Assembly (NCBI GenBank): GCA_947625045.1
Contig: CANQMW010000001.1
Location: 62,001-126,000 of the forward strand
Length of the DNA: 64,000 nucleotides
Reading direction: 5' to 3'
Source: an uncultured Oscillospiraceae bacterium
GTDB taxonomy: Bacteria > Bacillota > Clostridia > Oscillospirales > Oscillospiraceae
Each line of letters starts with the position of its first letter. The first letter of the stretch is position 1. Positions 43,810-51,901 of this stretch are shown here, piece by piece. The translations under genes were made by a program, and so were the position numbers. The notes beneath the pieces are model-generated. The model did not search any database, had not been told where the DNA came from, and saw only the letters and a list, made by a program, of their open reading frames with translations.

Positions 43810-44220
43810 ATGAAACACGAATGCAGGATCACCGTACTGGAAACGAAGTGTTTTCCGGAGCTTCAGGAGAAGTACCTGGCTGATCCAAAGTCAGGTCCGT
43901 GTCCCTTTTTCAAGGTAGGCGACACGTTTTTGCTCAAGCGCACGCCGCAGCAGGATGATTTTTACCACCTGATGAACGGGAAGCTTTGCGGCGAGGCGTG
44001 GGACGCTGTGAGCCGGTATGTCTATACGGCCCTCCAGGGCGGCTCGATCATGAAGGGCTGGACAAATGACGACCGGATGATGATCGCCTGCTGTAACGAC
44101 GGAACGAGGCCCGTGGTATTCAAGATCGAGAGGATCGACATCCCGGAGACCGAGGAAGAGCAGGCATGGCTGGAAAAACAGGATTTCAGCAATTCCGCCG
44201 GGGACGCTTATACGGGCTGA
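43810..44220 (+). CDS. TIGR04076 family protein
   Basis: A 136-aa small cysteine-containing protein. 'CRITVLETKCFPELQEKY', the later 'KLCGEAWDAVSRYVYTALQGG' and 'IACCNDGTRPVVFKIE' match TIGR04076, a family of unknown function common in anaerobes. The conserved CC pair suggests metal binding or redox use. The ribosome site TAGGAGG precedes ATG 43810. It may be the only intact gene at this end of the accessory block. Confidence 0.8.
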   Translation: MKHECRITVLETKCFPELQEKYLADPKSGPCPFFKVGDTFLLKRTPQQDDFYHLMNGKLCGEAWDAVSRYVYTALQGGSIMKGWTNDDRMMIACCNDGTRPVVFKIERIDIPETEEEQAWLEKQDFSNSAGDAYTG

Positions 44221-44226
44221 TACCAA

Positions 44227-44262
44227 ATTACACGGTTGGCCATATCGGGCCAGCCGTGTAAT
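44227..44262. terminator. Dyad between convergent genes
   Basis: A 15-bp perfect inverted repeat (44227-44241 / 44248-44262) between the TIGR04076 gene and the minus-strand radical SAM gene. It lacks a T tract but is well placed for both. Confidence 0.55.
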
Positions 44263-44282
44263 ACTGTGAGTTGAAAATGGAT

Positions 44283-45212
44283 TTACTCTGCTTCCGTCAC
44301 GCGCTTTTTGCGCTGGCCGGTATTGTCTGAGCCCCGGATCTCCTCGTGGTAGAAATAGTCCACGATGACGGGGTGGCCCTGGGGGACGCGGCCATAGGGC
44401 ATCTCATTGTCCACAAAGGGGCAGTCGTATTTCTTTGCCATTTCTTCCGCCCTCTTTTCCAGCGCCTCAAAATAACGGCGGTCGTGCTTGTTATATATTT
44501 CGTCATACAGCAGCATGAGCTCCGGGCGCTTCCCGGCGATATAGTCCATGATGGTTTTCTTGAACCCGCCCCGCAGGTTCAGGTTCTCCAGCCAAAAGAG
44601 GTCGCACTGGTCTTTGACCCGCTCAAAGATGGCCTCAAAGTCCGTGATCCCCGGAAAGACAGGGGACACAAAGCACACGGTGCGGATACCGGCGTCGTAG
44701 ACCTTTTTCATGGCGGCGATGCGCCGTTCGATGCTGACGGCGCTGTCCATGTCATTTTTGAAATCCTCGTCCAGCGTGTTGACAGACCAAGACACCGTCA
44801 CCTGTCCCAGCTCTTTTAGAAGGTCTATATCCCGCAGGACCAGGTCGGACTTGGTGCAGATGAGGATGTCCGCGCCGCTGCCGCGAAGCTGCTCCAGCAG
44901 TTTGCGGGTGGCCCCGAATATCTCCTCCTGGGGGTTGTAGCCGTCGGTGACGGAACCGATGACCACCCGCTGTCCAGAATACTTCTGCGGATTTTTGATC
45001 TCCGGCCAGTGCTTTACGTCCAGGAACGTGCCCCATTCCTCCGTGTGGCCGGTGAAGCGCTTCATGAAGGAGGCGTAGCAGTATTTGCAGGCGTGGGTGC
45101 AGCCCACGTAGGGATTGACGGAGAAGCCGCCCACCGGGAGGCTGGACTTCGTCATGATGTTTTTCGTCTCCACGTCGGCGATGAGCACGCCGTTATCCGT
45201 CAACTGGGCCAT
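44283..45212 (-). CDS. Radical SAM protein, 'mobile pair' B type
   Basis: A 309-aa radical SAM enzyme. The Fe-S/SAM motif is Cys38, Cys42 and Cys45 in 'GCTHACKYCYASFMKRF'. Its 'VNPYVGC' lead-in and 'SVTDGYNPQE' resemble spore-photoproduct-lyase-like radical SAM proteins. It overlaps the next radical SAM gene upstream by 13 bp. Together they match my memory of the TIGR04470/TIGR04471 'radical SAM mobile pair' of Firmicutes; the reaction is unknown. Last gene of the Rrf2-NifX-rSAM operon. Confidence 0.82.
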   Translation of the reverse strand: MAQLTDNGVLIADVETKNIMTKSSLPVGGFSVNPYVGCTHACKYCYASFMKRFTGHTEEWGTFLDVKHWPEIKNPQKYSGQRVVIGSVTDGYNPQEEIFGATRKLLEQLRGSGADILICTKSDLVLRDIDLLKELGQVTVSWSVNTLDEDFKNDMDSAVSIERRIAAMKKVYDAGIRTVCFVSPVFPGITDFEAIFERVKDQCDLFWLENLNLRGGFKKTIMDYIAGKRPELMLLYDEIYNKHDRRYFEALEKRAEEMAKKYDCPFVDNEMPYGRVPQGHPVIVDYFYHEEIRGSDNTGQRKKRVTEAE

Positions 45213-45889
45213 GTTCGCTGCTCCTCCAAAACCTTGTTAAATGCGTCCGGCAGTTTCTGCACAGGCGTGTCCCCGCCCATGATGGGGGCCAGGTCCTCCT
45301 TCCAGAAAACCGGGATGTGAAGCGCGTGGGCCTGCTCCGTCAGGGAATACACCCATTCGGGCGTGGTTCGGACCTTCCGGCTCTGCGGACCGGTCATGGT
45401 GCCGATGACCACCCAGTCTATGCCGTGAAGATCGACCTCGCCCGGATCGTCGAACAGCGGCTCGAAAGTCACGTGATAATGCCGGGCCCGCACGTTTTGT
45501 CGCAGCGCGTCGATCCGCCAAAGCTCCGATTGCCGTGTGACCGTCACGCCGAACCACGCATTGTCAAGGTCAGTATCAATGTTAAGCAGGTCGGGGCGTT
45601 TTGACAGGAACAGAAACTGGTGCTGGGGATTCTCCGCCATCCTGGCGAATACCTGCTCCCGCCAAGCCGGTTCCCATCCCGCCAGGTCGCTCATGCCGGT
45701 CAGCAGAAAATTCTGCGGTTTTTCCTTCTCCATCAGCCGCAGCTTATTGGGAAAGAACTCCGGCGTGGAAAAGTCGTCGATCATGTGATAACGCTTGACG
45801 TTGTTCCTGGCGTAGCAGTAGGGACAGCCCACGGTGCAGCCGATCACCAGATTCATATTCTGTATCTGGTCCTTGATGCAGATGTACAT
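45200..45889 (-). CDS. Radical SAM protein, 'mobile pair' A type
   Basis: A 229-aa protein. Cys20, Cys24 and Cys27 form the CxxxCxYC motif in 'IGCTVGCPYCYARNNVKRY'. 'FLSKRPDLLN', 'WFGVTVTRQSE' and 'HYHVTFEPLFDD' resemble DUF5131-type phage/element proteins. A longer frame to 46276 is only the shadow of the NifX-like gene. ATG 45889 lies one base after the TAA of that gene, so it is translationally coupled. Paired with the overlapping B gene; substrate unknown. Confidence 0.8.
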   Translation of the reverse strand: MYICIKDQIQNMNLVIGCTVGCPYCYARNNVKRYHMIDDFSTPEFFPNKLRLMEKEKPQNFLLTGMSDLAGWEPAWREQVFARMAENPQHQFLFLSKRPDLLNIDTDLDNAWFGVTVTRQSELWRIDALRQNVRARHYHVTFEPLFDDPGEVDLHGIDWVVIGTMTGPQSRKVRTTPEWVYSLTEQAHALHIPVFWKEDLAPIMGGDTPVQKLPDAFNKVLEEQRTWPS

Positions 45890-45890
45890 A

Positions 45891-46295
45891 TTATTCGTGG
45901 CAGGAATGGCCGCCGCAGCCATGTCCGCCGCAGTTATGGGCGCCTGTGCCGTGCTCGTGGTCATGGTGGTCGCAGTGTACGGCCGGGTCATAGCCCAGCG
46001 TGCCGGCCAGCAGCGCGGCCACGGCCTCGTCTGCGGCGCCCTGGACGCCGCCGTAAAGCCGGATGCCCGCCTCGGCCAGCGCCATCTGCGCGCCGCCGCC
46101 GATGCCGCCGCAGTCATGGGCGTCCACGCCGTTGGCGGCGAGAAACGCGGCCAGCGCCCCATGGCCCTGACCGGCAGTGGGAACGATCCGGGAGGAGACG
46201 ACCTGCCCGTTCTCTGCCTCATAGATCTTGAACTGCTCTGTATGGCCGAAATGCTGAAAGACCATCCCGTTTTCATACGTGACCGCGATCTTCAT
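45891..46295 (-). CDS. NifX/NifB-like dinitrogenase-cofactor domain protein with His/Cys tail
   Basis: A 134-aa protein. Residues 1-100 are the NifX-type fold ('KIAVTYENGMVFQHFGHTEQF', 'GGGAQMALAEAGIRLYGG'), known to carry Fe-S or Fe-Mo cluster precursors. The last 30 residues are a metal-binding tail with 10 His and 4 Cys ('DHHDHEHGTG', 'CGGHGCGGHSC'). GGAGG at 46304-46308 favours ATG 46295 over ATG 46301. No nitrogenase genes are near; a cluster-carrier or metal-sensing role with the radical SAM pair is an inference. Confidence 0.85.
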   Translation of the reverse strand: MKIAVTYENGMVFQHFGHTEQFKIYEAENGQVVSSRIVPTAGQGHGALAAFLAANGVDAHDCGGIGGGAQMALAEAGIRLYGGVQGAADEAVAALLAGTLGYDPAVHCDHHDHEHGTGAHNCGGHGCGGHSCHE

Positions 46296-46297
46296 GT

Positions 46298-46750
46298 TCA
46301 TACCTCCGTATCGCTATCCATGCCAGCCTCTTGGCGGTAGGTGTCGATGATGTCCTGCAGGGTGATGGCGCTCATGCGGTCCTCCGCGGCCCGCTGCACC
46401 TCGTCGTAATAGTCCCGCAGAGCCAGCTGGATGTTCACGCCTACGCCGCAGTTGGGATTGGTGTGGGTATCCTGGTGCAGGATGGGCTTGTCCCCCTCGA
46501 TGGCCCGGTAAACGTCCAGCAGGGAGATGCCGCCGGGCTCCCTGGCAAGGGCGGCCCGGGGATGGCCCTTCACGCTGGCCAGCAGGCCGGCCTTTCGCAG
46601 GGCGCTCATCAGCTGCCGGATGTAGGCGGGGTTGGTCTGCACGCTCTCGGCGATCCGCTCACTGGTGAGGGCCGCGCCCGGATGGAGGGCGAGAAAGGCC
46701 AGCACATGCACTGCGTCGCTGAGTTTGGTGGAGTATTTCAAAGCCGTCAC
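46298..46750 (-). CDS. Rrf2-family transcriptional regulator
   Basis: A 150-aa regulator with an N-terminal winged helix ('YSTKLSDAVHVLAFLALHP', 'PAYIRQLMSALRKAGLL'). Relatives sense Fe-S clusters, NO or cysteine. Only one cysteine lies in the usual cluster region ('NPNCGVG'), so a classical three-Cys cluster is unlikely. Start GTG 46750. It heads the minus operon and faces the sirtuin operon across a 103-bp region that contains two dyads, probably its own operators. Confidence 0.87.
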   Translation of the reverse strand: MTALKYSTKLSDAVHVLAFLALHPGAALTSERIAESVQTNPAYIRQLMSALRKAGLLASVKGHPRAALAREPGGISLLDVYRAIEGDKPILHQDTHTNPNCGVGVNIQLALRDYYDEVQRAAEDRMSAITLQDIIDTYRQEAGMDSDTEV

Positions 46751-46773
46751 CCTTTTCTCTGGATGTTATTTTT

Positions 46774-46802
46774 ATTATAACAGCAGATTGACAGAAACAC
46801 AA
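46774..46802 (-). promoter_or_regulatory. Promoter of the Rrf2-NifX-rSAM operon
   Basis: On the minus strand TTGTGT (46797-46802), 17-bp spacer, TATAAT (46774-46779). It overlaps the divergent plus promoter. Confidence 0.65.
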
Positions 46803-46816
46803 GAGCGTGCTATGCT
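46788..46816 (+). promoter_or_regulatory. Promoter of the Sir2-Sir2-HD operon
   Basis: TTGACA at 46788-46793, 17-bp spacer, TATGCT at 46811-46816 with TGC extended -10. Confidence 0.7.
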
Positions 46817-46862
46817 TTTGCTGTAAAATAAAAAATAACAGCAGACGAAAGGCGTGAATGCT

Positions 46863-47831
46863 GTGAGCTACTATGATAATATGGTCATGCAGGCCCAGAT
46901 GAAGTATTCCATGTATTACGACACCTACGCCGCCGGGCGCACCCCCTACCAGCTCTCCACCCGGCCGCCGCTGCCCTACGAGGAGCAGATCGGGCGGCTT
47001 GTTGATGAGATCGCCGCGGCGGACTGCGTGCTGGTGGGCGGGGGCTCCGGCCTGTCCGCCGCCGGGGGCGGGGATTTCTATTACGAGGACAACGAGTCCT
47101 ATCGGAAGTGTTTTGGGAAGTATGCGGAGAAGTATCACTTTAAGGGCGCCTTCGCCGGCATGATGCATCCCTGGGCCAGCCGGGAGGAGTTCTGGGGGTA
47201 TCTTGCCACGTTCCTGCACACCACCCAGACCGCGCCCGTCCGCAGGCCCTATCTGGACCTGGATACGCTCCTGCGGGGCAAGGACTTTTTCGTCCTCACC
47301 ACCAACCAGGACACCCAGTTCGTCAAGCTCTATCCGGAGGACAAGGTAGCGGAGATCCAGGGCGACCACCGCTTCTTCCAGTGCGCGGCCTGCTGTACGG
47401 ACGACACATGGGACGCGGTGGAGCCGGTGCGGCAGATGATCGCCGCCATGGGAGAGAGCACCGCCGTGCCCCGGGACATGGTGCCCCGCTGCCCCCACTG
47501 CGGCGGCGAGGCGTTCCCCTGGGTGCGGGGCTACGGCAATTTCCTGCAGGGGAAGAAGTATGACGAGCAATATGAAAAGGTCTCCCGGTATATCCTGGCC
47601 CACAAGGACCAGCGCATCCTGTTCCTGGAGCTGGGGGTGGGCCGCCTCACGCCCATGTTCATCCAGGAGCCCTTTTGGAACCTGACGCTGGCGTTCCCCA
47701 AGGCCCGGTACATTGCCGTCAACAACAAGTATAACTATCTGCCGGCGCAGATCGAGGACAAGGGCATGGTGATCGTGGCCGACATCGCCGACGTGCTGCG
47801 TGACGCGGTATCGGCAAAGGAGAAGGAGTGA
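46863..47831 (+). CDS. Sir2-like protein 1 (SirTM-like)
   Basis: A 322-aa sirtuin-fold protein. NAD loop 'VGGGSGLSAAGG' (58-69), 'TTNQDTQ' (Asn148), 'EIQGDH' (Gln166) and a zinc site of Cys174/177 ('CAAC') with Cys210/213 ('CPHCGG'). The place of the sirtuin catalytic His is Gln. As I recall, class M sirtuins (SirTM), which are protein ADP-ribosyltransferases, also have Asn and Gln there, so this copy may ADP-ribosylate rather than deacetylate. GTG 46863 gives proper spacing from GAAAGG; GTG 46854 is also open. First gene of the plus operon. Confidence 0.72.
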   Translation: MSYYDNMVMQAQMKYSMYYDTYAAGRTPYQLSTRPPLPYEEQIGRLVDEIAAADCVLVGGGSGLSAAGGGDFYYEDNESYRKCFGKYAEKYHFKGAFAGMMHPWASREEFWGYLATFLHTTQTAPVRRPYLDLDTLLRGKDFFVLTTNQDTQFVKLYPEDKVAEIQGDHRFFQCAACCTDDTWDAVEPVRQMIAAMGESTAVPRDMVPRCPHCGGEAFPWVRGYGNFLQGKKYDEQYEKVSRYILAHKDQRILFLELGVGRLTPMFIQEPFWNLTLAFPKARYIAVNNKYNYLPAQIEDKGMVIVADIADVLRDAVSAKEKE

Positions 47832-47836
47832 GCATT

Positions 47837-48667
47837 ATGGACCTGGCGCCTGTCGCGGAAAAGATAAAAGGAGCGGACGCCATCCTGATCGGGGCCAGCA
47901 ACGGCCTGTCCATCACGGAGGGGCTGCACCTGTTTGCGGACAACGGGGCGTTTGAATATCTGTTCGGGGACTTTAAGCAAAAGTACGGCCTGCGGTGCAT
48001 CCTGCAGGGAGCCGGGGCCCGCTGGCCCTTCGAGGAGGAGAAGTGGGCCTTCTGGAGCCGCCTCATCCATCACTACTGCGGGCAGTATGAGCCCACGCAG
48101 GTCATGGAGGACCTGAAGGCCATCGTGGGTAGGAAGGACTATTTCATTGTGACCTCCAACGGGGAGGGCCATTTCGAGATGAGCGGCTTTGCCCCGGAGA
48201 GGATCTATGAGATCGAGGGGAACTGGCTGACCATGCAGTGCGCCGCCGCCTGTCACGACACGCTCTATCCCACCCTGGAGCTGGCGGAAACGCTGGCGGC
48301 GACAGAGCGGGACGGCAGGGTCCCCACAGAGCTGGTGCCCCACTGTCCCCGCTGCGGCGGGCCCATGCGCGTGCATATGGTGGGAGAGAACTACATCCCG
48401 GACGATGCCGCACGGGAGAGGTTTGGCTCGTTTCTGGAAGAATACCACGGAAAGAAGCTGCTGGTGCTGGAGCTGGGGATCGGCTGGCGCAATCAGCTCA
48501 TCAAGGCGCCGCTCATGCGTTTGGTGGCCCGGGAGCCGGAGGCGGCCTACGTGACCGTCAACCTGGGCGAGGTCTATATCGCCGAAGACATCCGGGACAA
48601 ATCCTTTGGCCTGGACGGGCCGCTGAGCGATATGCTGTCGGCCCTGCGGGAGGCGTGCGGAGCATGA
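47837..48667 (+). CDS. Sir2-like protein 2 (degenerate paralogue)
   Basis: A 276-aa paralogue of the preceding protein. NAD-loop counterpart 'IGASNGLSITEG' (18-29), 'TSNGEG' (Asn108), 'EIEGNW' (Glu127 at the catalytic His place), zinc cysteines 135, 139, 170 and 173. Loss of the His/Gln and changes in the loop suggest it binds NAD or ADP-ribose without normal catalysis, perhaps as a partner of protein 1. ATG 47837 has AAGGAG upstream and lies 5 bp after the first gene's stop. It overlaps the HD gene as ATGA. Confidence 0.7.
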   Translation: MDLAPVAEKIKGADAILIGASNGLSITEGLHLFADNGAFEYLFGDFKQKYGLRCILQGAGARWPFEEEKWAFWSRLIHHYCGQYEPTQVMEDLKAIVGRKDYFIVTSNGEGHFEMSGFAPERIYEIEGNWLTMQCAAACHDTLYPTLELAETLAATERDGRVPTELVPHCPRCGGPMRVHMVGENYIPDDAARERFGSFLEEYHGKKLLVLELGIGWRNQLIKAPLMRLVAREPEAAYVTVNLGEVYIAEDIRDKSFGLDGPLSDMLSALREACGA

Positions 48668-49197
48668 ATCTGCCGGAAACTGTCCGCGGGGACTATGAGA
48701 AGTGGCGCGCCTTCCTGCGGGAACAGGTGACGTTTTCCCTGAAAGATTCGGAGAAGCACACGAAGGACCACTGTGCCCGGGTGCTGCTGTACGCGCTGCT
48801 GATCGCGGAGAAGAGGGGCCTGCCCCGGAGCGAGCGGGAGGTGCTGTGCGCCGCGGCGGTGTTCCACGACTCCCGCCGGCAGGACGACTGGCTGGATGTG
48901 GGCCACGGCCGGCGGGCGGCGGACTATTACCGGGACTTTTGCCGGACGGGCGGGCTTGCCTTTGACGAGCGGGTATATCAGATCATGGCCTGGCACGACC
49001 GGCCCAGCGCCGAAGGCGAGGCGGCCATGGACGAGCTGGAAAACGGCGTGCTGCTCTACCGCATATTCAAGGACGCGGACGGGCTGGACCGGTACCGGCT
49101 GGGTCCCAACGCGCTGGATGTGGACAGGTTGAGGACGGCGGAGGCCCGCAGTTTGACCGGCCTCGCCCGGCAGCTCGTGCGTAAGGCAGAAGAATAA
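48664..49197 (+). CDS. HD-domain phosphohydrolase-like protein
   Basis: A 177-aa protein with HD-domain features: 'HTKDHCARVLLYALLIAE' (first His), 'AAAVFHDSRRQDDW' (the HD pair) and 'IMAWHDRPS'. Such domains hydrolyse nucleotides or phosphate esters, often as metal enzymes. Coupled to Sir2-like 2 through ATGA. A longer upstream frame is a shadow. Given the sirtuins, a nucleotide or ADP-ribose derivative is a plausible substrate, but nothing proves this. Confidence 0.8.
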   Translation: MNLPETVRGDYEKWRAFLREQVTFSLKDSEKHTKDHCARVLLYALLIAEKRGLPRSEREVLCAAAVFHDSRRQDDWLDVGHGRRAADYYRDFCRTGGLAFDERVYQIMAWHDRPSAEGEAAMDELENGVLLYRIFKDADGLDRYRLGPNALDVDRLRTAEARSLTGLARQLVRKAEE

Positions 49198-49239
49198 CGG
49201 CCCCGGTTTGGCTCTCCTGACATGACCAATAGCGTGAGG

Positions 49240-49270
49240 GCGGGAGCATCTTATTCGATGCTCCCGCTTT
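49240..49270. terminator. Terminator of the Sir2-HD operon
   Basis: An 11-bp perfect stem (49240-49250 / 49257-49267) with TTATTC loop and short T run, between convergent genes. Confidence 0.75.
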
Positions 49271-49295
49271 GCTCATCTCCCCGATAAATAGGAAT

Positions 49296-49736
49296 TTAGT
49301 TTTCTGCTGATAACCGACAATTCAGTTCATAAAGCGCCGTTCTATTAGAATCCCATTTCAAACGTGACATAGCATCACAGTAATCCAACCATTCGCAATC
49401 AAGGTGTTCTTTGGATAGTTTTATATCGGAAATACATTCAAACGCAAAATGATACTCCGGCAAAACAAAAGTGTCCTTTGACCAGTGCTTTCGATGGCGT
49501 TCTGAAATAACATTTGCGGGGATATATGCCATTGAGACGAGTTTGGTTATGTTGTCCACTTTTATCCCTGCTTCTTCTGCAATCTCGCGGGTTGCAGATT
49601 CTACTGGCGTCTCAACATCTTCACCGCCGCCTGCTACGAATTGCCACTGATCTATATCTGCGCGGTGAAGAACGCAGAACTGTAGATTCGGATTTCGTCT
49701 ATAAGGAATCGCCAATATCTGAAACGGTGCTCTCAT
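49296..49736 (-). CDS. Nudix hydrolase
   Basis: A 146-aa protein with a full Nudix box, 'GGGEDVETPVESATREIAEE' followed by AGI, in which all the metal-binding Glu are present. 'FQILAIPYRR' at the start resembles dATP / dihydroneopterin-triphosphate pyrophosphatases (NudB-like). GGAGG 9 bp upstream supports ATG 49736. The DNA is clearly AT-richer than the sirtuin operon, so it may have a separate origin. Substrate not assignable. Confidence 0.85.
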   Translation of the reverse strand: MRAPFQILAIPYRRNPNLQFCVLHRADIDQWQFVAGGGEDVETPVESATREIAEEAGIKVDNITKLVSMAYIPANVISERHRKHWSKDTFVLPEYHFAFECISDIKLSKEHLDCEWLDYCDAMSRLKWDSNRTALYELNCRLSAEN

Positions 49737-49800
49737 GCTAATTAACCTCCACAACTCCCGATCTGTCGCTCCGATTAACTTCTCGGCAAACAGGAATTTG

Positions 49801-50750: not shown

Positions 50751-51314
50751 TCAAATGATAAGACTTGCCAAGGTCCCCAGCGCGCCGGCGCCCATCATCA
50801 CATAGATGGGCTTCACCCGGAAGCGCCGCAGCACGAAAAGGCTGACACAGAAAAGAGCCAAAGAGATATAGTTTATCCCGCCCAGGTCCTCCGGCAGCGT
50901 CCGCTGGCCGTAGAAGGTCATGATCTGAAGCGATATGCCCGCCGACGCGATCATGGCAACCACAGCTGGGCGGAGGGCCGCCAGTATCCCCTTCACCGTA
51001 TCCAGGCCCCGGAAACGGTAATAGACGTAGGCCAGCGCCATCACGATGCAGCAGGAAGGCAGAACGCACCCCGCCGTGGCTACCACGGCGCCGGGGATGC
51101 CGGCCACTCGGATGCCCACGAAGGTGGCGGCGTTGATGGCGATGGGGCCGGGCGTCATCTCGGCGATGGTCATGATGTCCGCGAACTGGGTCATGGTCAG
51201 CCAGGGGTGGACATCCATGACCTGGTGCTGGATGAGGGGCATGGCCGCGTAGCCGCCGCCAATGCTGAATAGGCCGATCTGGAAAAAGCTCCAGAGAAGC
51301 TGCCCATAGATCAC
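50751..51314 (-). CDS. Chromate transporter half 2
   Basis: A 187-aa membrane protein of the CHR family, one half of a split transporter. 'FFQIGLFSIGGGYAAMPLI' and 'AEMTPGPIAINAATFVG' are the two family motifs. The start is GTG 51314, overlapping the TGA of half 1 as GTGA, so they are coupled; the longer frame to 51671 is a shadow of half 1. Members export chromate or other oxyanions. Confidence 0.9.
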   Translation of the reverse strand: MIYGQLLWSFFQIGLFSIGGGYAAMPLIQHQVMDVHPWLTMTQFADIMTIAEMTPGPIAINAATFVGIRVAGIPGAVVATAGCVLPSCCIVMALAYVYYRFRGLDTVKGILAALRPAVVAMIASAGISLQIMTFYGQRTLPEDLGGINYISLALFCVSLFVLRRFRVKPIYVMMGAGALGTLASLII

Positions 51315-51901
51315 GGCCGCCTCACCGCCTTTCGATGGAGATGTCCGCCATGTTTGCGGAAGACCGTATCCGCCGCGCCAATGGCGGCGCAGACCAGGAT
51401 CACGGCGATGATGTTCACGCCCAGAAACCGCACGGCGATGAACGACAGGACCATGATGGCCGGATACAGCAGCCGCTTTTGGCGCAGCACCCCCGCGCCC
51501 ATGGTGAGCACCACGTCGCATATCACCGCCGCCACCCCGGCCAGCATGCCGGCCATGGCTGTGTTCACGATGGCGTTGTCCCGCACCGCGCCGTAAAACC
51601 CGGATATGGCGGAGATGATGACCAGCGGCGGCAGCACCGTGCCAAGCACCGCCAGCAGCGCCCCCAGACACCCGGCCACATGATAGCCCACCAGGATGGA
51701 GGCGTTCACCGCGATAGCTCCCGGCGAGGACTCCGCGATGGCGACCAGGTCCAGCATCTCCTGCTCGTCGATCCAGTGCAGCTCATTTACGAACTTCTCC
51801 CGCATCAGCGGCACGATGACAAAACCGCCCCCGAAGGTCCCCGCGCTCAGCTTCAGCGTGGAGATGAAAAGCTTTCCGTAGACGCCCTTCTCTCTTTTCA
51901 A
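51311..51901 (-). CDS. Chromate transporter half 1
   Basis: A 196-aa CHR-family half: 'LSAGTFGGGFVIVPLM' and 'AIAESSPGAIAVNASILVG'. The start is TTG 51901, with AAGGAGG at 51909-51915 7 bp upstream. Forms a heterodimer with half 2 by family precedent. Divergent from a LysR gene 103 bp away, the usual control arrangement. Confidence 0.9.
   Translation of the reverse strand: MKREKGVYGKLFISTLKLSAGTFGGGFVIVPLMREKFVNELHWIDEQEMLDLVAIAESSPGAIAVNASILVGYHVAGCLGALLAVLGTVLPPLVIISAISGFYGAVRDNAIVNTAMAGMLAGVAAVICDVVLTMGAGVLRQKRLLYPAIMVLSFIAVRFLGVNIIAVILVCAAIGAADTVFRKHGGHLHRKAVRRP

Follow-up and report, generated by a model that had tools for sequence, protein, structure and literature searches.

The question raised by positions 44,283 to 49,197 of a 64-kb window—by which we mean the whole 64,000-nucleotide stretch analysed, from contig CANQMW010000001.1 of an uncultured Oscillospiraceae bacterium—is what seven closely packed genes, divided between two divergent arms, might accomplish together. 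The minus arm encodes an Rrf2 regulator, a NifX-like protein, and two radical SAM (rSAM) proteins, A and B; the plus arm encodes two sirtuin-fold proteins, here called A and C, and an HD-domain hydrolase. A preliminary description made from the sequence had tentatively regarded all seven as one mobile, redox- or metal-gated modification system acting in stress or defence. The A–C block seems to be a form, so far undescribed, of a stress-response modification system that is already known. From what the sequences suggest, we lean slightly toward reading it as a two-subunit module of class-M-like sirtuins that is induced by thiol or electrophile stress and turns over NAD+; what is conserved is A plus C, usually with Rrf2, to which HD and NAD-salvage genes are joined in some lineages.

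We compared sirtuins A and C with the curated cut-offs of Pfam and NCBIfam, above none of which either protein scored, and then with the PDB by phmmer. The best match of both was the S. pyogenes SirTM 5a3a_A (E 8.3e-40 for A and 1.1e-39 for C), the second 8rsn, a macrodomain-bearing chain (6.7e-17 and 2.2e-11, respectively), and the SIRT5 and SIRT6 entries reached E 0.012 at best; because 5a3a far outscored the other PDB matches, we grouped A and C with the class M sirtuins, an affinity that also holds for a third type, B. Class M sirtuins are described, in the portions consulted of Rack et al. (2015; PMC4518038), as lipoylation-dependent ADP-ribosyltransferases devoid of deacylase activity, in which mutation of SirTM Asn118, Gln137, or Arg192 dramatically lowers activity. 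The aligned motifs of A retain equivalents of those three residues, of Asp120, and of the TP pair; and N151, D153, Q169-G170, R225, and T266-P267 were invariant in an alignment of 20 homologues, as were the cysteines C177, C181, C213, and C216. QG stands in place of HG in all 79 type A copies, the type-defining motif itself including QG, and one position departs from the GVGx[NT]TP motif, which reads GVGRLTP in A and has L, M, or I at the [NT] place across the type. We accordingly regard A as a probable ADP-ribosyltransferase catalytic subunit.

The loci compared were the best 80 of 128 relatives from public genomes, and the 157 sirtuins of at least 240 amino acids (aa) from those loci, from the window, and from contig 40 of the same genome were typed as 79 A, 52 C (assigned by the motif TSN[GA]E), 21 B, and 5 other. 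All 52 type C copies carry EG, not QG. Relative to SirTM, C keeps the Asn, has Glu for Gln, and lacks an Arg at the aligned column; the TP pyrophosphate motif is gone, [RK]NQ standing instead (GIGxxNQLIKAP-like versus GVGxxTP), and the glycine-rich loop is retained. In 17 homologues E130-G131, N111, N222-Q223, K226, and P228 were invariant, together with the cysteines C138, C142, C173, and C176. C is under purifying selection, with dN/dS values against three copies of 0.18, 0.20, and 0.13, the corresponding values for A being 0.24, 0.19, and 0.13. Type B likewise has QG and is inserted in some arrays, the order ABC being found in 10 loci.

The pairing of A with C was counted in the 57 of the 80 loci that have at least 2.2 kb of flank on both sides of A. 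In 43 of these a C-type sequence (at least 45% identity) was present no more than 2.5 kb from A: an intact typed C in 39 and a partial or split C in four (L018, L031, L035, L058). The remaining 14 were judged by motif and by weak tblastn matches: a shorter, split, or diverged C was present near A in L057, L060, L063, L065, L067, and L074, a 36% C match in L055, a remnant in L062, and a C about 3 kb off in L048. Within a sample of 394 genomes of the order, class-M-like matches occurred in 100 and motif-checked type A in five (six loci), all six loci having an EG-type C within about 1 kb. A CobB-rooted tree placed A in one clade (support 98/95), which takes in two motif-untyped proteins, and C in another (100/100), each including copies from Bacillales and Lactobacillaceae plasmids; the branching among A, B, C, and M differs between trees, the unrooted one setting C apart and the CobB-rooted one joining C with M at 97/97. 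The Lactobacillaceae plasmids carry an A-like gene with a C–cupin fusion, as in L151 (6854-8188), where type C is fused to a DUF985 cupin, with genes for a type A protein and a TetR regulator next to it.

Rrf2, whose closest PDB match was YwnA (1xd7), lies within 3 kb of A in 56 of the 80 loci. Of the 57 homologues in its cluster, the 55 with at least 130 aa all have the cysteine corresponding to its C101, which phmmer aligns to a Cys of YwnA. This residue occupies the position of C102 in SifR, which, according to the portions consulted of PMC9218516, senses quinones through a single thiol and has the operator TGTAA-N9-TTACA. The two dyads that had been noted between the arms were indeed located by pattern scan (O1 and O2; Table 1) and are the only two TGTWA-N9-TWACA matches in the window, each deviating from the strict SifR form. 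Of the overlapping divergent promoters described there, the plus one, recovered by the promoter scan, sits between O1 and O2; the minus one, TTGTGT-N17-TATAAT, was read by eye and is missing from the scan output. Of the 52 homologous intergenic regions between Rrf2 and a sirtuin, 48 contain at least one TGTWA-N9-TWACA, the mean over 100 shuffles being 0.1; those regions were bounded by longest-start open reading frames (ORFs), so that some are short—among them L024 and L030, which together with L041 and L062 are dyad-free—and some border C or B as the nearest sirtuin. The pattern occurs at five sites in the 2.93-Mb genome that contains the window, of which the two copies of the sirtuin promoter account for three, and the reversed-pattern control occurs at two; this placement makes the switch look dedicated to the module. 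Rrf2 thus probably senses thiol-reactive stress, and the redox gating proposed earlier agrees with a one-cysteine regulator of the SifR/YwnA type with matching operators.

As to NAD+, the genes for A, C, HD, nicotinate phosphoribosyltransferase, and an isochorismatase-family protein follow one another in this order on one strand in a plasmid of Paenibacillus sp. 37 and in one of Mesobacillus foraminis, where one small gene interrupts the run. Among the gut loci, the L078 array adjoins nicotinate phosphoribosyltransferase, NadE (NAD synthase), and an HD–isochorismatase fusion, and the L048 array adjoins nicotinate phosphoribosyltransferase and an isochorismatase-family gene. The isochorismatase-family protein of L078 holds D, K, and C residues that we take to be the nicotinamidase triad. 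The window HD belongs, in a seven-sequence alignment, to the same family as the HD half of the L078 fusion; in a sample of 391 genomes of the class that family was found in seven at E 1e-12, our own genome included, and out of the six others only G406 (L152) has an adjoining sirtuin gene, a C in two overlapping frames. The salvage neighbours in gut loci and plasmids point to NAD+ consumption and, together with the class M affinity, uphold the earlier suggestion of NAD/ADP-ribose chemistry.

We infer from these comparisons the activity of the module, the A–C complex, the binding and inducer of the repressor, the role of HD, and the target. Rrf2 would bind as a repressor to the two dyads flanking the sirtuin promoter, and modification of Cys101 by quinone, electrophile, or disulfide stress would free it from the DNA. 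A would then use NAD+ to ADP-ribosylate an acceptor through the QG mechanism of the class M sirtuins, with C as its partner—an activating or substrate-presenting subunit, or else a reader of the modification. The nicotinamide released could be recycled by the NAD-salvage enzymes that some lineages encode next to A and C, HD might act on an NAD- or ADP-ribose-derived product, and the rSAM pair and NifX would constitute optional redox-stress cargo.

Canonical class M sirtuins provided a control for the macrodomain: in 20 such loci chosen from the order-sample matches, a protein of the macrodomain cluster—a cluster that includes the Pfam Macro protein beside our contig-40 sirtuin—was present in 19, in 18 within 300 bp and in L145 at about 1.1 kb, with none in L137. 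When 22 macrodomain proteins were used as tblastn queries, none was found beside the A–C pair in the 80 loci, the matches in L013, L015, and L050 lying elsewhere, nor anywhere in the window or in L089 and L091-L095. Since no linkage to a Zn-macrodomain was found, we filed A and C as class-M-like and not as SirTM/Zn-Macro. A macrodomain is encoded elsewhere in five of six type A genomes; in G657, which has A and C, none was found genome-wide at E 1e-6.

Several findings weigh against the two-subunit module with NAD+ turnover. No macrodomain was found beside the pair, and the window genes include neither GcvH-L nor lipoate ligase, so that the target and the eraser established for SirTM cannot be transferred to it. 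Four of the 57 well-flanked loci (L039, L041, L042, L056) show A without any C, and in L082 C lies more than 7 kb from A, so that C may not be strictly required. The C proteins of L060, L063, L065, and L067 are devoid of the zinc-ribbon region; such ribbonless type C proteins, of 230 aa and noted in L060 and L063-L067, keep the EVEG and NQLIKA motifs. HD is present in six of the 80 loci and NAD salvage adjoins only two, so that salvage has no standing part in the gut bacteria; the nicotinamidase label, furthermore, derives from Pfam Isochorismatase and context, the NCBIfam nicotinamidase cut-off being missed (31 versus 174 bits for the L048 protein).

The block as a whole is another matter. 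Neither the 80 loci nor the sampled genomes yielded all seven genes together outside our own genome, which has two copies, and L005, a close relative, L004 being ended by contig ends; NifX homologues occur in seven of the 80 loci, and on these counts, with that of HD, we rejected the single conserved seven-gene system of the preliminary description. The alternative that the rSAM pair and NifX are functionally unrelated cargo, the system being Rrf2–A–C(–HD) only, has a substantial chance of being right, somewhat short of even. The scarcity of NifX favours it, as does the finding that no more than 16 of the 80 loci have rSAM B at a distance of up to 10 kb from A, several of these 16 being near copies (L060, L063, L065, and L067; L023 and L025). 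The protein B family, TIGR04470, scored above cut-off in 35 of the 394 order-sample genomes (37 loci), and 30 of those 37 loci have no class-M-like sirtuin within 10 kb, many of the sirtuin-free ones having MarR or HxlR and a flavin reductase as neighbours. Nevertheless, 19 of the 35 genomes also have a class-M-like sirtuin (8.9 expected, P 1.2e-4), and in six of the 19 it lies within 10 kb of rSAM B as against 0.15 expected (P 1.5e-8)—Poisson and hypergeometric values that presuppose randomly placed genes in genomes of 2.5 Mb and take no account of relatedness—with three of the six having type A and three a canonical SirTM. Moreover, L109 (8955-11462; G033) is a radical SAM/macrodomain/sirtuin operon, in which the macrodomain gene shares 4 bp with rSAM B and also overlaps a canonical SirTM gene. 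The link between rSAM proteins and sirtuins made earlier is supported as a real one, by the 16 of 80 loci as well, and gives the radical SAM mobile pair a functional context of which we had met no description.

The seven sirtuin-linked rSAM B loci were all among the 24 scoring above 500 bits, with none among the 13 lower scorers. The lower-scoring group (417-455 bits) may have a DNA-repair setting; most of its loci (L115-L123, L125, L126) adjoin genes that, from their sequence, we take to be formamidopyrimidine-DNA-glycosylase-like and/or nitroreductase-like. DUF5131-like proteins (cluster k16) were also observed beside canonical SirTM in L108 and L142. The open-licence literature searched yielded no paper naming the radical SAM mobile pair A/B; since the pair is already a named family (TIGR04470/TIGR04471), novelty rests on the plus arm.

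A second alternative, which we consider doubtful, places writer and eraser in one fold: A would add ADP-ribose and the Glu-bearing C remove it, standing in for the Zn-macrodomain. C does stand where canonical loci have the macrodomain as partner; no macrodomain lies beside A–C, nor was one found at E 1e-6 in all of G657; and the Glu of C is invariant and its glycine-rich loop retained. C has nonetheless lost the Arg and the TP pyrophosphate motif, and the macrodomain located elsewhere in five of six type A genomes could act in trans. We know of no sirtuin-fold ADP-ribosylhydrolase. An extended form, less likely still, would be a sirtuin-only ADP-ribosylation switch of gut anaerobes, in which QG writer A is opposed by EG eraser or reader C in replacement of the macrodomain, HD and salvage close the NAD+ cycle, the rSAM pair acts on or repairs the target, and the whole is released by a quinone or thiol sensor.

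That A and C might be protein deacylases, related to class M in fold only, appears improbable: weak matches to PRK00481 deacylase models exist, far below cut-off, and the Bacillales relatives are annotated as deacetylases, but QG or EG replaces the HG motif, the 5a3a match (about 1e-39) stands against 0.012 at best for SIRT5/SIRT6, and the SirTMs lack deacylase activity in the consulted portions of PMC4518038. An NAD+-depleting abortive-infection defence akin to the anti-phage SIR2 proteins, to which the sirtuin fold, the patchy spread, the plasmid-borne relatives, and the matches of rSAM A to two unnamed PADLOC candidates (PDC-M30B, 5e-29; PDC-M41B, 1.1e-28) might be thought to point, is the least probable of the readings and was set aside as the principal one, given the class M affinity, the dedicated thiol-type repressor, known partners that are NAD-salvage enzymes and not nucleases, the lack of any PADLOC match at E 0.01 for A, C, or HD, and of any for NifX, and the yield of the phage searches, namely one weak phage record and no relative of A in the scan of viral contigs.

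Returning to the two-subunit sirtuin module, its nearest known counterpart is the SirTM/Zn-Macro operon (portions consulted of PMC4518038 and PMC11490716), with which it shares the sirtuin subfamily, the packed operon, and the redox-stress setting, and A has the QG catalytic motif and the N, R, D, and TP equivalents. The module differs in having two or three sirtuin paralogues, usually one of the EG type, with no adjacent macrodomain found, an Rrf2 or TetR regulator, and, in some lineages, HD and NAD-salvage genes. As regards the Rrf2 proteins SifR, YwnA, and HypR, the one invariant Cys at the place of C102 (SifR) or C97 (YwnA) and a 19-bp operator in which N9 separates two 5-bp half sites are common to both, judging from the text available of PMC9218516; the half site is TGTWA in the module and TGTAA in SifR, and the module dyads lie at sirtuin genes beside their own Rrf2 gene, whereas SifR governs a catechol/iron regulon. 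The human FAM118A and FAM118B are likewise two diverged sirtuin paralogues, each almost inactive alone and active together in the portions consulted of PMC12700824, which joint activity provides a precedent for C as partner of A; joint action on NAD+, shown there, is proposed here, and FAM118A/B are of the SIR2_2 subfamily, vertebrate, without an operon, and require the catalytic His/Asn in both partners. Both window rSAM proteins, encoded by adjacent genes, score above the curated cut-offs of the radical SAM mobile pair (TIGR04471/TIGR04470), and the window pair differs in lying near class-M-like sirtuins.

In the open-licence papers, as far as their accessible text extends, nothing was found naming a paired class-M-like sirtuin with the Rrf2, rSAM, HD, and salvage arrangement. 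The targets of class M sirtuins beyond GcvH-L are stated to be unknown in the text available of PMC11490716; a macrodomain-free version in several phyla, in which a distinct paralogue almost always accompanies the catalytic one and partner, sensor, and, in some lineages, NAD+ recycling are encoded together, could offer a direct way into those targets and, if A and C were an obligate pair, a counterpart in bacteria of the human FAM118A/B pair.

The mobility claimed for the block is consistent with its distribution, albeit indirectly: a second copy of 44227-49297 exists in the own genome (L089), with 95.8% identity over 3735 bp and 89.2% over 1190 bp, and this copy together with the patchy spread suggests horizontal movement. 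In that copy rSAM A (L089:11064-11582) has 172 codons versus 229, being 57 shorter. Type A was found in two of the 391 class-sample genomes at E 1e-80, and among the A loci are some whose records bear the names Desulfovibrio, Collinsella, Succinivibrionaceae, and Treponema; the A–C pair recurs on plasmids of Bacillales and Lactobacillaceae, the Bacilli being covered in the collections through plasmids only.

Table 1. Positions of the features of the block and of its immediate surroundings within the window.
Feature	Position	Strand	Evidence
TIGR04076 small protein, possible accessory	43810..44220	+	NCBIfam match; 6/80 loci
rSAM B, radical SAM mobile pair protein B	44283..45212	-	TIGR04470, 592 bits vs cut-off 410
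rSAM A, radical SAM mobile pair protein A, DUF5131-like	45200..45889	-	TIGR04471, 410.9 bits vs cut-off 355
NifX/NifB-type (Nitro_FeMo-Co) protein, His/Cys-rich tail; local accessory	45891..46301	-	Pfam 3e-19
Rrf2 repressor, one-cysteine, YwnA/SifR-like (C101)	46298..46750	-	Pfam Rrf2 1e-33
Operator-like dyad O1, TGTTA-N9-TAACA	46764..46782		Pattern scan
Promoter-like site of the sirtuin operon, TTGACA-N17-TATGCT	46788..46816	+	Promoter scan
Operator-like dyad O2, TGTAA-N9-TAACA	46822..46840		Pattern scan
Type A class-M-like sirtuin, 325 aa, GTG start; probable catalytic ADP-ribosyltransferase subunit	46854..47831	+	
Type C divergent sirtuin partner, 279 aa, Glu replacing catalytic Gln	47828..48667	+	
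HD-domain hydrolase, 177 aa	48664..49197	+	Pfam HD 25.4 bits, cut-off 22

All seven ORFs were recovered and identified by HMM or PDB sequence search, and they are as tightly packed as had been described: rSAM B and rSAM A overlap by 13 bp, a 1-bp gap separates rSAM A from NifX, and the pairs NifX/Rrf2 and A/C each overlap by 4 bp. The HD gene, placed earlier at 5 bp from C, overlaps it by 4 bp from the ATG at 48664; and the two arms, previously said to face each other, stand back to back across the 103-bp gap between Rrf2 and sirtuin A. A NUDIX gene at 49296-49754 was excluded from the block, since the two own-genome copies cease to match at 49297. The TIGR04076 protein is also present near the second copy (L089 5195-5605).

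Among the neighbouring genes, heavy-metal export functions (a Cd/Zn-type P-type ATPase, HMA, ArsR) lie beside several loci and the second own-genome copy, not beside the window copy, and we kept them as an accessory association. Many Lachnospiraceae copies lie near genes for MinD/CooC-like ATPases, MoxR, VWA, and DUF3786 (PF12654), which neighbours prompted us to consider a role in nickel/CODH-like metal-enzyme maturation, a candidate that we set aside; neither the block in the window nor the annotated regions from Bacillales showed such genes. In the Lachnospiraceae loci L018, L022, L034, L045, L053, and L073 a gene of the DUF3786 cluster, Pfam-tested in L045 and L053, lies close downstream of the sirtuins; and a DUF3786-type gene is followed by TetR and MinD/CooC-like ATPases in several loci, with MoxR and VWA in some, a neighbourhood resembling that of metal-enzyme maturation. 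Downstream of the block in the window, a gene of the chromate-transporter family (Pfam) is located on the minus strand at 51311-51901.

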